From assembly GCA_025981625.1 (NCBI GenBank), contig JAICXF010000046.1, forward strand, positions 1 to 14,532: a DNA stretch of 14,532 bases, given 5' to 3'. This stretch comes from Sphingomonas sp. (GTDB lineage Bacteria > Pseudomonadota > Alphaproteobacteria > Sphingomonadales > Sphingomonadaceae). Positions 8,976 to 11,928 of this stretch are shown in pieces (the first letter of the stretch is position 1; each line of letters opens with the position of its first letter). The notes under the pieces are model-generated. The model made no database searches. It saw only the letters and a list, made by a program, of their open reading frames with translations, and was not told where the DNA came from. The translations under genes were made by a program, and so were the position numbers.

Positions 8976-9173
8976 CTTGAGCCAGTTCCTCACTTCTTTC
9001 AGTCGCTTGAACAAAGATTTAACAGCGGGTGCAAGGCTTTGCATGACACTATTGTCGCGCTTGCGGAACGATGCCGCCTTATCGTCGTTCCTGCGCCTGT
9101 AACATGCACCGTCGCCGGCGGCAGTGGTGCCGTGCGCATGTTTGCAACGGTCATCAGAACGGGAGAAAGAGCG
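8976..9173. promoter_or_regulatory. Divergent intergenic region between arsC and the glycine-zipper gene
   Basis: This 198-bp spacer must contain promoters for both directions, but I could not place a convincing -35/-10 pair. It holds one small inverted repeat, TGCAA-GGCT-TTGCA (9030-9043), that might be an operator, and a Shine-Dalgarno GGGAG at 9161-9165, 8 nt before the plus-strand ATG. The base composition is lower in GC than in the flanking genes. Confidence 0.4.
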
Positions 9174-9764
9174 ATGCAAAAATCAATTCTAGCACTCACC
9201 CTTGGAAGCACGGCCATGCTCGGGGCGTGCGCGACCAATCCTGCGGTCCCCCGCGACGCGGCGATCGGTGCTGTCGGCGGCGCCGCAGTGGGCGCGGTCG
9301 TTCCGGGTGTGAGCGTGATCGAGGGCGCCGCCGTCGGTGCGGCGATCGGCGGTCTTGCAGGCGCTGTATGGGCCGACAACAACAATGACGGCTATGTCGA
9401 CGGCTATATGTACAACGGCCAATATTATCCCGGCACGCCTTCCGGTTACGATCCGGGCACCCACAGCGTTCTCGCCAGCGCGGCCACGGGCGCCGTCGGC
9501 GGCGCTGCGCTCGGGGCGGCTGCCGGCGCGGTCCTCCCGGGCGTCAGCGTGCTCCAGGGTGCGGTGATCGGCGCTGCCGTCGGCGGCCTTGCCGGCGCCG
9601 TATGGGCCGACCGCAACAATGACGGACAGGTAGACGGCTACGTGTACAACGGGCAATATTATGCCGGTGCGCCCGCCGGTTATACCGGCACTGCTGCCGC
9701 TCCGATGCCCGCTCCGGCTCCGATGCCAATGCCGGCTCCGAGCCGCGGTGGCGAGCGCGGCTAA
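9174..9764 (+). CDS. Duplicated glycine-zipper lipoprotein with D-x-N-x-D-G loops
   Basis: The 196-residue envelope protein begins with a signal peptide ending in the lipobox LGAC (Cys19). Two homologous units follow (about residues 32-92 and 106-170). Each has a glycine-zipper membrane hairpin (GAVGGAAVGAVVPGVSV, then GAAIGGLAGAVWAD), then an acidic loop, D68-N-N-N-D72-G-Y-V-D76 or D146-R-N-N-D150-G-Q-V-D154, then GYxYNGQYY. The loop resembles the calcium loop of EF-hands and dockerins. The tail is Pro/Met/Ala-rich (PMPAPAPMPMPAP). Glycine-zipper lipoproteins of the 2TM type are common outer-membrane-associated proteins of unknown role. GGGAG lies 8 nt before the ATG. A strong terminator starts 69 nt after the stop codon, inside the next gene's signal-peptide region. 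Calcium binding is inference. Confidence 0.87.
   Translation: MQKSILALTLGSTAMLGACATNPAVPRDAAIGAVGGAAVGAVVPGVSVIEGAAVGAAIGGLAGAVWADNNNDGYVDGYMYNGQYYPGTPSGYDPGTHSVLASAATGAVGGAALGAAAGAVLPGVSVLQGAVIGAAVGGLAGAVWADRNNDGQVDGYVYNGQYYAGAPAGYTGTAAAPMPAPAPMPMPAPSRGGERG
9267..9683 (+). repeat. Internal tandem duplication in the glycine-zipper gene
   Basis: Units at 9267-9449 and 9489-9683 encode about 61 and 65 residues that align almost throughout. The second has four extra residues in the first helix (AAAG), so the GAVGG starts are 74 residues apart but the GAVWAD ends 78 (234 bp) apart. Several stretches remain nearly identical as DNA, for example around ATGGGCCGAC at 9368 and 9602. Confidence 0.85.
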
Positions 9765-9775
9765 TCCGGACCCCG

Positions 9776-9792
9776 TCAAAGAGGGTCTTTGA
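9776..9792 (+). promoter_or_regulatory. Hairpin over a possible start site of the L,D-transpeptidase gene
   Basis: TCAAAGA (9776-9782), loop GGG, TCTTTGA (9786-9792) form a perfect 7-bp stem. It takes in the GAGGG that would serve as ribosome site for the ATG at 9792, and also the A of that ATG. This argues for GTG 9816 as the working start or for structure-controlled use of 9792. Confidence 0.45.
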
Positions 9793-9815
9793 TGGGAAGT
9801 TTGATTGGAGAACGC

Positions 9816-11171
9816 GTGAAGAGTTTGCGTTTCAAGTGCACCGGCCCGCGGCCGGTGCACTTTTTTGGGCTGACGGGAACCGCCGCGGCAGCGCTGCTGG
9901 CTGTGGCAATCCCCATCACTCCGGCCGTCGCGCAGCCCGCGGCAGTGGCCAAGCCCGCCGTGCGCAGTCAGACGGTCGCCGACTTCTACCGCGGCAGGAA
10001 CAATTATCCGCTGTGGCTGACACCGGCCGCCGGGGATTCGGCGCAGCAGCTCGTTACGCTTCTCGCAAATGCCAACTTCGACGGGCTCGATCCCACGCGC
10101 TACAACGTTCCGGCCATTCAGCAGGCGCTCGATCTCGCTCGGGACGGCAAGCGCAAGCATGTCGAAGCCGCCGACCAGCTGCTGTCGAATGCTTTCGTCA
10201 CCTACGTTCAGGATCTTCGACAGGACCCGGGCGTCGGAATTAGCTACGTCGACGCGAGTTTGAAGCCGACGCCGCCGACCCCTCTTGCGGCGCTGCTGAC
10301 GGCTGCCGCGGCGCCGTCGCTCAGCGACTATGTTCATTCGCTCGGCTGGATGAATCCGATCTACGCGCAACTCCGCGATGCGCTCGCGACCCACGCTTAT
10401 TCGACCGACAGCCAGCGCGAAGCGCTCGAGCTCAACCTCAAGCGCGCGCGCGTACTGCCGGCCGGCAAGCAGCGCTACGTGCTGGTGAACGCCGCGCAGC
10501 AGCGGCTGTACATGTACGAAGGCGGAAAGGCCGTCGATTCGATGGTGGTGGTCGTCGGCAAGCCGAAATGGCCGACGCCGATGATGACCGCGTACATCCG
10601 CTATGCGGCGCTCAATCCCTATTGGTACGTTCCGTCCGACCTCGCCGGCGAGGACGTCGGCCAGTATGTGGTCAAATATGGCCTCTCCTATCTCGATCGG
10701 ATGGGATATGAGGTCGTCGACGACTGGACGCCCAATCCGAAAATCATCGATCCGAAGACCATCGACTGGAAGGGTGTCGTCGCCGGCAAGGTCAACGTCC
10801 TCATTCGTCAAAAGCCCGGTCCGCAGAACTTCATGGGCCGGATGAAGTTCATGTTTCCCAACGAGTTCGGCGTCTATCTGCATGACAACCCGCGCCGCGA
10901 GCTGTTCCTGAAGTCGACGCGCTACTTCAGCGGCGGTTGCGTCCGGCTGGAGGATGCCGCGCGCCTTGGGCGGTGGCTGTTCGGGCACGATCTCGACTGG
11001 CAGTCGGCGGGAACCGAGCAGCCGGTGCCGCTCGCTACTCCGGTGCCGGTCTACATCACCTATCTGACGGCGATGCCCGACGGCGGCACGATCGCTTATT
11101 ACGACGACGTCTATGGGCGGGATGCGGCGAAGCTCGCGGCGGCTCCGGTCAAGTCGGGCGTGAGCCGCTAA
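9816..11171 (+). CDS. Secreted L,D-transpeptidase (YcbB/LdtD-like, YkuD catalytic domain)
   Basis: The 451-residue periplasmic enzyme would make 3-3 cross-links in peptidoglycan or attach lipoproteins to it. A basic, unusual n-region (KSLRFKCTGPRP), a hydrophobic core (AAAALLAVAIPI) and a cleavage site after AVA (residue 39) form the signal peptide. Residues about 50-210 are the LdtD-type scaffold (FYRGRNNYPLWLTP, FDGLDPTRYNVP). The YkuD domain (about 220-385) carries YLHDNP with His356 and SGGCVRLED with catalytic Cys375. GTG 9816 has GGAG 5 nt upstream. ATG 9792 is the alternative; its ribosome site lies in a hairpin. A strong intrinsic terminator covers codons 7-17, so expression probably depends on coupled translation. 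Its stop codon interlocks with that of the convergent tonB-like gene. Confidence 0.93.
   Translation: MKSLRFKCTGPRPVHFFGLTGTAAAALLAVAIPITPAVAQPAAVAKPAVRSQTVADFYRGRNNYPLWLTPAAGDSAQQLVTLLANANFDGLDPTRYNVPAIQQALDLARDGKRKHVEAADQLLSNAFVTYVQDLRQDPGVGISYVDASLKPTPPTPLAALLTAAAAPSLSDYVHSLGWMNPIYAQLRDALATHAYSTDSQREALELNLKRARVLPAGKQRYVLVNAAQQRLYMYEGGKAVDSMVVVVGKPKWPTPMMTAYIRYAALNPYWYVPSDLAGEDVGQYVVKYGLSYLDRMGYEVVDDWTPNPKIIDPKTIDWKGVVAGKVNVLIRQKPGPQNFMGRMKFMFPNEFGVYLHDNPRRELFLKSTRYFSGGCVRLEDAARLGRWLFGHDLDWQSAGTEQPVPLATPVPVYITYLTAMPDGGTIAYYDDVYGRDAAKLAAAPVKSGVSR
9834..9866 (+). terminator. Strong intrinsic terminator inside the L,D-transpeptidase coding start
   Basis: AAGTGCACCGGCC (9834-9846) and GGCCGGTGCACTT (9850-9862) are perfect 13-base arms around a 3-nt CGC loop, and the Ts run on from 9861 to 9866. 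This is a textbook rho-independent terminator on the plus strand; the minus strand lacks a long T-run. It is suitably placed to end the glycine-zipper transcript, yet it lies within the signal-peptide codons of the L,D-transpeptidase gene, where it encodes KCTGPRPVHFF. Confidence 0.88.
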
Positions 11172-11872
11172 CCGCGCCACCAGTTCGGGAAGAAGGTGAC
11201 GTCCTGCCCCACCGGGCGGCCATTCGGGTCGCGCGCCGGATCGAACCGGATGTAGCGCAACGTCAGCTCGCACATCAGCCCGTCGATGGACGGGTCGCCG
11301 CTTGAGCGGGCGACGCGGCAGTTCGAGACACTGCCGTCCGGATTGACCCGGATCGTCACGCCGACCCTGCCGCTGGGGAGCCCGGTGCGGGCAAGCGCCC
11401 TATATTCGCTGTCCGGGATTTTGCTGATCCGCCGCGCCGGGGTGAAGCGGGAGAAGTCTCCGCCGCCACCGGGCGCGTTTCCCGCTCCGCCGGCACCCGT
11501 TCCATTGCCCGCCCCGGCAGCGCCCGACGTCGTTGCGCTCGCTGAGCCGGGAACCTTCGCGGCGGGGAGCGGCGAGGGTGCGGGGATGCGGGGCTGCGGC
11601 GCAACCACGGGGGAAGGCTCGGCTTTCTTCGCCGGTGCGCCTTGAGGTTTCTTCATCGCCTGTGGTTTCGGCGCGGGCTTCCGCGGCGGCTGGACCGGCG
11701 GGGGCGGGGGTTGGCTAAGGCTGATGGTGGTCAATGCCTCGACGGCGTGCCGAACGTTCGCGACGTGGAGTCCGGAAAGGATCAGAAACGCCAGCGCCAC
11801 ATGGACCAGGATAACCGCGGCGATGGCTTTCGCCCGGTCCGGAGCATCAGCGCCTCCGCGATAGCTCGACAC
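11168..11872 (-). CDS. TonB-family energy transducer
   Basis: The 234-residue protein has the TonB layout: a short cytoplasmic start, one membrane anchor (about residues 16-36), a Pro/Lys-rich periplasmic spacer (PPPPPVQPPRKPAPKP, then a Gly/Ala-rich stretch to 138) and the C-terminal TonB domain (about 147-230; SEYRALARTG, GRVGVTIRVNPDGSV, RYIRFDPARDPNGRPV). Such proteins link the proton-motive force, through ExbB-ExbD, to outer-membrane receptors. His24 of the anchor matches the key His20 of E. coli TonB, but the partner serine four residues earlier is Val here. No exbB or exbD is adjacent. I chose GTG 11872 because GGAGGA lies 10 nt upstream; GTG 11908 is possible. It lies downstream of the MFS gene on the same strand, and its stop interlocks with that of the L,D-transpeptidase. 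Confidence 0.88.
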   Translation of the reverse strand: MSSYRGGADAPDRAKAIAAVILVHVALAFLILSGLHVANVRHAVEALTTISLSQPPPPPVQPPRKPAPKPQAMKKPQGAPAKKAEPSPVVAPQPRIPAPSPLPAAKVPGSASATTSGAAGAGNGTGAGGAGNAPGGGGDFSRFTPARRISKIPDSEYRALARTGLPSGRVGVTIRVNPDGSVSNCRVARSSGDPSIDGLMCELTLRYIRFDPARDPNGRPVGQDVTFFPNWWRG

Positions 11873-11928
11873 GCGTTCAATGTCCTCCGCCCGACGAACG
11901 CCTGGCACGAATCGAAGTTTGCAGCGGC

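Follow-up and report, generated by a model that had tools for sequence, protein, structure and literature searches.

A conserved terminator-like hairpin within the signal-peptide codons of an L,D-transpeptidase gene downstream of a glycine-zipper gene in sphingomonads

The window, i.e. the whole stretch of 14,532 nucleotides of Sphingomonas sp. DNA that was analysed, carries a glycine-zipper gene (gz) on the plus strand at 9174 to 9764, ending with the stop codon TAA at 9762-9764. The gene was recognised by its reading frame and by matches to Gly-zipper_YMGG and Gly-zipper_Omp, and in the genus it is the conserved upstream partner of the gene that follows. This second gene (9816 to 11171, plus strand) encodes an L,D-transpeptidase of the YcbB type (LDT) with a signal peptide, and its domain matches exceeded the gathering score for PF20142 (Scaffold, 84.2 bits) and PF03734 (YkuD, 80.1 bits). 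The motif SGGCVRL was read directly in the LDT sequence, and we take its cysteine to be the catalytic one. Between the gz stop and the LDT start codon, GTG at 9816-9818, the gap is 51 nt; a GGAG at 9807-9810 precedes the start, and the start stands 18 nt ahead of the hairpin described below. A gene for a TonB C-terminal protein, identified by domain match, lies convergently on the minus strand at 11168 to 11908, and a relative of it is found directly behind gz in two other loci (L191 and L195).

The hairpin at 9834-9862 consists of the 5' arm AAGTGCACCGGCC (9834-9846), the loop CGC (9847-9849) and the 3' arm GGCCGGTGCACTT (9850-9862). It is followed by a run of six T at 9861-9866, two of which double as the last stem pairs. 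Hairpin and T-run also serve as LDT codons 7-16 and 16-17 (Phe-Phe), respectively. Direct reading thus confirmed the original prediction of perfect 13-bp arms, a 3-nt loop and a T6 run between 9834 and 9866, in frame within LDT codons 7-17 counted from GTG 9816. Both parts of an intrinsic terminator were present, a stable GC-rich hairpin with a short loop and a U-rich tract directly behind the stem, the latter being T6 in the window and weak in some relatives. The predicted RNA fold had an energy of -25.4 kcal/mol, while shuffles averaged -14.3 kcal/mol (z -3.95) and none of 200 was equally stable. When the amino acids were kept fixed, 5 of 1000 synonymous recodings equalled the pairing, in a region that was picked once the hairpin had been seen. 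A generic terminator scan of the window did not list the hairpin at 9834-9862, because it demanded five T in the 8 bases past the stem and two of the T count as stem.

A known structured RNA family, such as a riboswitch, was rejected as the identity of the element, since the Rfam search of 9000-10300 gave nothing over the gathering score and only two matches below it (AS-pc02 at 9789-9951 with 17.8 bits versus 40, and asX1 with 22.5 bits versus 70). A repeat family was likewise rejected: with at most 2 mismatches the pattern occurred in 2 of 298 family genomes, namely in G001 at the LDT locus and as an unlike match in G062. With at most 1 mismatch it was found in 8 of 71 genus genomes, in all 8 at LDT positions. 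A search for plasmid relatives returned two records with partial matches.

To compare the element among relatives we started from the protein. The search gave 4314 relatives among 7996 scored candidates, and CTG..PVHFF, the translation of the hairpin and T6, was present in 111 of the 120 relatives listed, while most of the flanking signal-peptide residues varied more. As this alone could reflect conservation of the protein, the DNA had to be compared. The genus sample comprised 71 genomes, with Sphingomonas hankyongi as a member through L005 and G004, and LDT matches were found in all 71. From the genus 70 loci were fetched (L025-L094), 46 of them behind gz and 24 not, and some of the 71 genomes had no gz-LDT locus. 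Together with the window this gave 47 gz-LDT loci, and a strong hairpin, defined by a stem score of at least 25, was present in 43 of them, 23-76 nt past the gz stop (median 40) and in frame in the n-region of the LDT signal peptide; the loci are related to each other, so that these counts do not stand for independent events. Genus loci L034, L062, L069 and L077 had no strong hairpin (stem below 25).

Outside the genus gz was clear by BLAST in 3 of 8 loci, of which L009 (Sphingosinicella) and L095 had the hairpin and L096 did not. In L099, L100, L101, L112 and L113 a gz-like end was judged by eye, the BLAST signal being weak or absent. Among these, L112 showed the same arrangement, L099 and L101 had a hairpin that holds the ATG, and L100 and L113 had none. 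The tests below used 46 hairpin rows, i.e. the 43 gz-LDT loci of the window and genus and three from outside the genus; L034, L062, L069, L077 and L101 were excluded for a stem below 25, and L099 because its gz end was not matched by the pattern. Hairpin, T-run and open reading frame are conserved together in related sphingomonads, which is the comparison that the original prediction had proposed, and the opposite outcome that it had named, no hairpin in close relatives, was not what we found.

The arm sequences themselves varied from AGTGCACCGGC through GACGCACCGGC and GTGCCGGGCGC to CCGCCGGACGC, each with its complement, although in this comparison pairing is partly true by construction, the hairpins having been selected. 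The encoded peptide varied as well (KCTGPRPVHF, TVRTGPQRPVRI, CAGRLVRPAL and KPAGRPLRPAGF). In alignment A3 (MAFFT, all 46 hairpin rows) standard pairs made up 88.6% of the paired positions, a value biased upward because only rows with a hairpin had been selected, versus 33-47% when the partner was slid by 1-3 columns. Cells changed on both sides numbered 103 compared to 37.5 (sd 5.2) in shuffles. RNAalifold recovered the helix unaided on A3, with compensatory change in 8 of 11 pairs. In the subset A2 (16 rows) paired cells and doubly changed cells exceeded the shuffles, but the number of further pair types did not, and in the subset A1 (7 rows) covariation was not above shuffles.

These data bear on the idea that conservation is limited to the peptide or to a DNA palindrome, either as a signal-peptide motif or as an operator for a DNA-binding protein. 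The frequency of CTG..PVHFF among the listed relatives would fit such an idea. Across the genus, however, both the peptide and the arm sequences change and the pairing stays; moreover, the T-tract is one-sided, and in the pattern searches of family and genus genomes the exact sequence was no repeated site. We regard this explanation as hardly credible.

Behind the stem T was enriched at third codon positions. In the 46 rows the four codons past the stem had T in 74 of 184 third positions (40%) versus 1953 of 16836 (11.6%) in the LDT body; in the following twelve codons it was 62 of 552, and the T-rich stretch was about ten bases long. Hydrophobic codons raise T at second and not at third positions, and the excess at third positions therefore points to a U-tract. 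In a recoding test the region was set in advance and ran from the first in-frame start codon up to residue 46 of LDT, with L040 and L057 skipped. Of the 47 gz-linked loci, 37 had a hairpin-plus-U score above that of their synonymous recodings (p<0.05), compared with 2 of the 22 LDT loci in this genus that lack gz upstream; a few loci in the test score via another hairpin further downstream. Median z was 2.22 and 0.09, respectively (Mann-Whitney p 8e-10, uncorrected for kinship), and none of the 22 loci without gz had z>2. By the third-position T counts the U-tract is selected at silent sites.

A terminator score was positive in 42 of 46 rows and below zero in L041, L045, L067 and L009. The tail score had a median of 3.73 in the 46 rows, whereas a set of 509 strong hairpins from two genomes gave 2.00. 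Poor U-tracts, in which the best 8 bases hold no more than 2 T, were found behind the strong stems of L027, L041, L045 and L060. Such loci would suit an element of RNA stability or processing, in which the hairpin shields or trims the gz mRNA at its 3' end and transcription is not stopped. A precedent is the coding-region stem-loop of E. coli arfA, an RNase III cleavage site at which transcripts also end (PMC3989581). A stabiliser would not need the silent-site enrichment of T right behind the stem, though, and we judge this explanation to be quite unlikely.

Where translation of LDT begins decides whether the hairpin is coding. An in-frame ATG, GTG or TTG between the gz stop and the hairpin, with no intervening stop, was present in all 46 rows. 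In eight rows AAGGAG was found ahead of the LDT ATG (L054, L055, L056, L058, L059, L061, L066 and L071), and in L060 the sole upstream start was a TTG 3 nt ahead of the extended stem. The original prediction had stated that no usual start codon past the hairpin keeps a signal peptide, the next GTG being at 9903. This did not hold, as an in-frame GTG at 9855 in the 3' arm keeps a hydrophobic signal (VHFFGLTGTAAAALLAVAIPITPAVAQ). Its equivalent was the annotated start in 3 of the 120 listed relatives (P0008, P0044 and P0081), and in G356 an ATG with AAGGGA before it lies 42 nt past the stem start. Both observations would agree with a mis-annotated start, in which case translation of LDT would start further downstream and the hairpin would be a terminator or leader that is not translated. 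Against it stand the open frame and the upstream in-frame start in every row and the AAGGAG motifs ahead of the upstream ATG. GTG 9855 was absent from several genomic relatives (e.g. L043, L052, L053, L067 and L070), and in L067 and L070 no in-frame ATG, GTG or TTG was listed past the hairpin at all. From the upstream starts and from these two loci we concluded that the hairpin is coding, and a mis-annotated start appears very improbable. A broader claim of the original prediction was supported as well: the signal-peptide codons contain a terminator-like element, and no transcript with the LDT start can avoid it.

Two further arrangements around the start were noted. In the subclade with L063, L065, L068, L070 and L072 a small second inverted repeat of the GGACC...GGTCC type, read by eye, lies right behind the LDT ATG and ahead of the terminator hairpin. 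P0093, of which only the protein record was available, is annotated with the hairpin apparently in another frame (MSAPAAGRCTFLG...).

In two genomes (L191 and L195) the gene behind gz is a convergent TonB-like one and not LDT. The TonB-like genes share 34% and 41% identity with the window gene at 11168-11908, and in the genome of L195 an LDT is found on the opposite flank of gz. In both loci a strong hairpin with U-tract was kept, 48 and 41 nt past the gz stop, respectively. As the hairpin is kept behind gz without LDT, and LDT loci without gz showed no excess, the element seems to go with gz; this test rests on two genomes only, and the hairpin in them could be the leftover of a lost LDT. In L194 (G354) a hairpin with a 4-nt loop is kept and the LDT frame is disjoined from the upstream start, due to either a broken gene or an assembly error.

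The original prediction had read the odd segment CTGPRPVHFF as an older gz terminator recruited into coding sequence. L191 and L195 support the origin from a gz terminator. The segment is no local oddity, given the compensatory change across the genus, and recruitment would leave the same picture as an element that evolved in place and was maintained. The clearance between gz stop and hairpin was at least 30 nt in 43 of 46 rows and shorter in L036, L051 and L060. This fits a distance effect in E. coli, where a terminator was repressed near a stop codon and maximal beyond about 30 bp (PMC4824070).

The placement of such hairpins was surveyed in two related genomes, over 800 kb with 768 genes called crudely. 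Of the 59 hairpins that reached stem 27 and U 5, 54 were intergenic, 3 antisense and 2 sense inside genes. One of the latter two was the gz-LDT element of G312. The other lies on the minus strand of the joined stretch of G312 at offset 239399 (approx. C1:1139400), 928 nt into a gene of approx. 2.6 kb. Further cases may hide in the intergenic class, because the copy of G356 itself meets the thresholds and yet appears to have been counted outside its gene by the crude caller.

Judged from the sequence comparisons, the element is a conserved, dual-coding, terminator-like stretch. We consider it likely that hairpin and U-tract form the intrinsic terminator of gz, overlapped by the start of LDT, and that LDT is a read-through product. 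This reading draws on the conservation, the pairing, the silent-site U-tract, the upstream starts and the persistence behind gz without LDT, all of them evident from comparing the sequences. LDT would be packed tightly behind gz with its start codon ahead of the gz terminator, so that this terminator would also encode the n-region of the signal peptide. Paired and often silent changes in arms and U-tract would preserve the stop signal together with the protein code. We infer that transcription stops at the hairpin and that the efficiency of the stop sets the LDT level. The majority of RNA polymerases arriving from gz would halt at approx. 9866, and only those reading through would yield LDT mRNA, leaving LDT at a low share of gz. 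Production of the enzyme probably depends on polymerase running past the stop signal.

Zymomonas mobilis belongs to the same order as the sphingomonads. About 250 intrinsic terminators have been mapped in Z. mobilis, and they resemble those of E. coli (PMC7566282). A close laboratory mimic of the gz-LDT arrangement is plasmid W48 of Li et al., an operon with the terminator tR2 placed 30 bp past the AUG of the second ORF, where the terminated mRNAs are non-stop. In that study translation cut termination by only about 10%, and the upstream gene was expressed at roughly half its level, which was put down to the non-stop mRNA (PMC4824070). Unlike gz-LDT, W48 is artificial, works in E. coli with unrelated genes, and its terminator also precedes a nearby stop codon (PMC4824070).

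The original prediction had proposed self-attenuation gated by translation, i.e. an early LDT ribosome would block folding of the hairpin and LDT mRNA would be finished only with efficient initiation. The distance from start to stem was mostly 16-20 or 29-36 nt (22 nt in L074 and L075), near the edge expected for an initiating ribosome. Furthermore, the LDT ATG overlaps the gz stop in L063, L065, L067, L068, L070 and L072, so that a hand-over of ribosomes could occur. However, the hairpin persists behind gz where no LDT comes next, and the W48 mimic lost only the approx. 10% of termination mentioned above, although in another organism and with another terminator (PMC4824070). Self-attenuation is in our view unlikely. 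Under the gz-terminator reading, ribosomes starting LDT would probably have little effect on termination, because of this small loss in E. coli.

The gz-LDT element would work like an intra-operonic partial intrinsic terminator, yet without a leader peptide and within the 5' end of the structural gene that follows. Such terminators likewise place a GC-rich hairpin and U-tract between genes of the same strand and lead to unequal expression, which we presume for gz-LDT, and the arrangement was present here, with gz and LDT in line and the terminator-like element between them. They differ from it in that the gz-LDT hairpin and U-tract are translated as signal-peptide codons of the downstream gene. 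The pyrBI leader attenuator also has its terminator early in a frame that is translated. In that case the frame encodes a leader peptide and the system senses UTP (PMC4824070), whereas the gz-LDT frame is a structural gene for which no signal is known. In ribosome-mediated attenuators of the trp or pyrBI type the leader peptide is separate, and here the frame across the hairpin is LDT itself. The arfA stem-loop is similarly inside an ORF and gives non-stop mRNA, but there RNase III does the cutting and the stem-loop sits at the 3' end of the frame (PMC3989581), while the gz-LDT hairpin is at the 5' end, hairpin and T6 being codons 7-17 of 451. Transcript ends in or near coding sequence are also described for E. 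coli, both within ORFs and in 5'-UTRs; those were mapped by experiment, and the gz-LDT pair was not found among them in the accessible part of that report (PMC7815308). A literature search covering titles and abstract openings, with few subscription journals, gave no account of the gz-LDT pair or of a terminator in signal-peptide codons.

Tentatively, the overlap may be more than tight packing. As suggested by the drop of upstream-gene expression in W48 that was put down to non-stop mRNA (PMC4824070), the terminated gz mRNA would carry a stop-less LDT mini-ORF, on which ribosomes would stall and call for trans-translation, giving a stress-responsive balance. Such a working device is unlikely. 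If true, it would tie together the LDT initiation rate, tmRNA capacity and the life of the gz mRNA, with read-through giving LDT, and would balance an envelope glycine-zipper protein against a cell-wall cross-linker.

As a natural case over dozens of genomes, one stretch of DNA seems to be both an export signal and the transcription stop of the previous gene, and the double constraint can be read as paired and silent changes. Signal-peptide n-regions may thus hold regulatory RNA, which is a warning for gene callers and for terminator finders that throw out intragenic hits. The dozens of natural variants would also be useful for the study of early translation versus termination outside E. coli.

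A second hairpin upstream, proposed to mask an upstream start, was indeed present in the window. It does not span 9776-9792 as originally predicted but 9772-9796, with 11 bp and without a clear U-tract, and it was found in ten loci of the window's subclade (window, L025, L026, L028, L030-L033, L038 and L076). Within the subclade it is maintained by matched changes, e.g. CCCGTCAAAG/CTTTGACGGG versus CCGCCGGGC/GCCCGGCGG. The supposedly masked start, ATG 9792, was present in 3 of the 10 genomic loci with this hairpin (window, L032 and L076). Its equivalent was the annotated start in 26 of the 120 listed relatives and may start some LDT copies. The start common to all ten loci was the position of GTG 9816. 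In L099 (G022) and L101 (G076), the GGGGAATGCGG/CCGCATTCCCC hairpin holds the LDT ATG in its own 5' arm, which is possibly a masking of the start codon different from the arrangement in the window.
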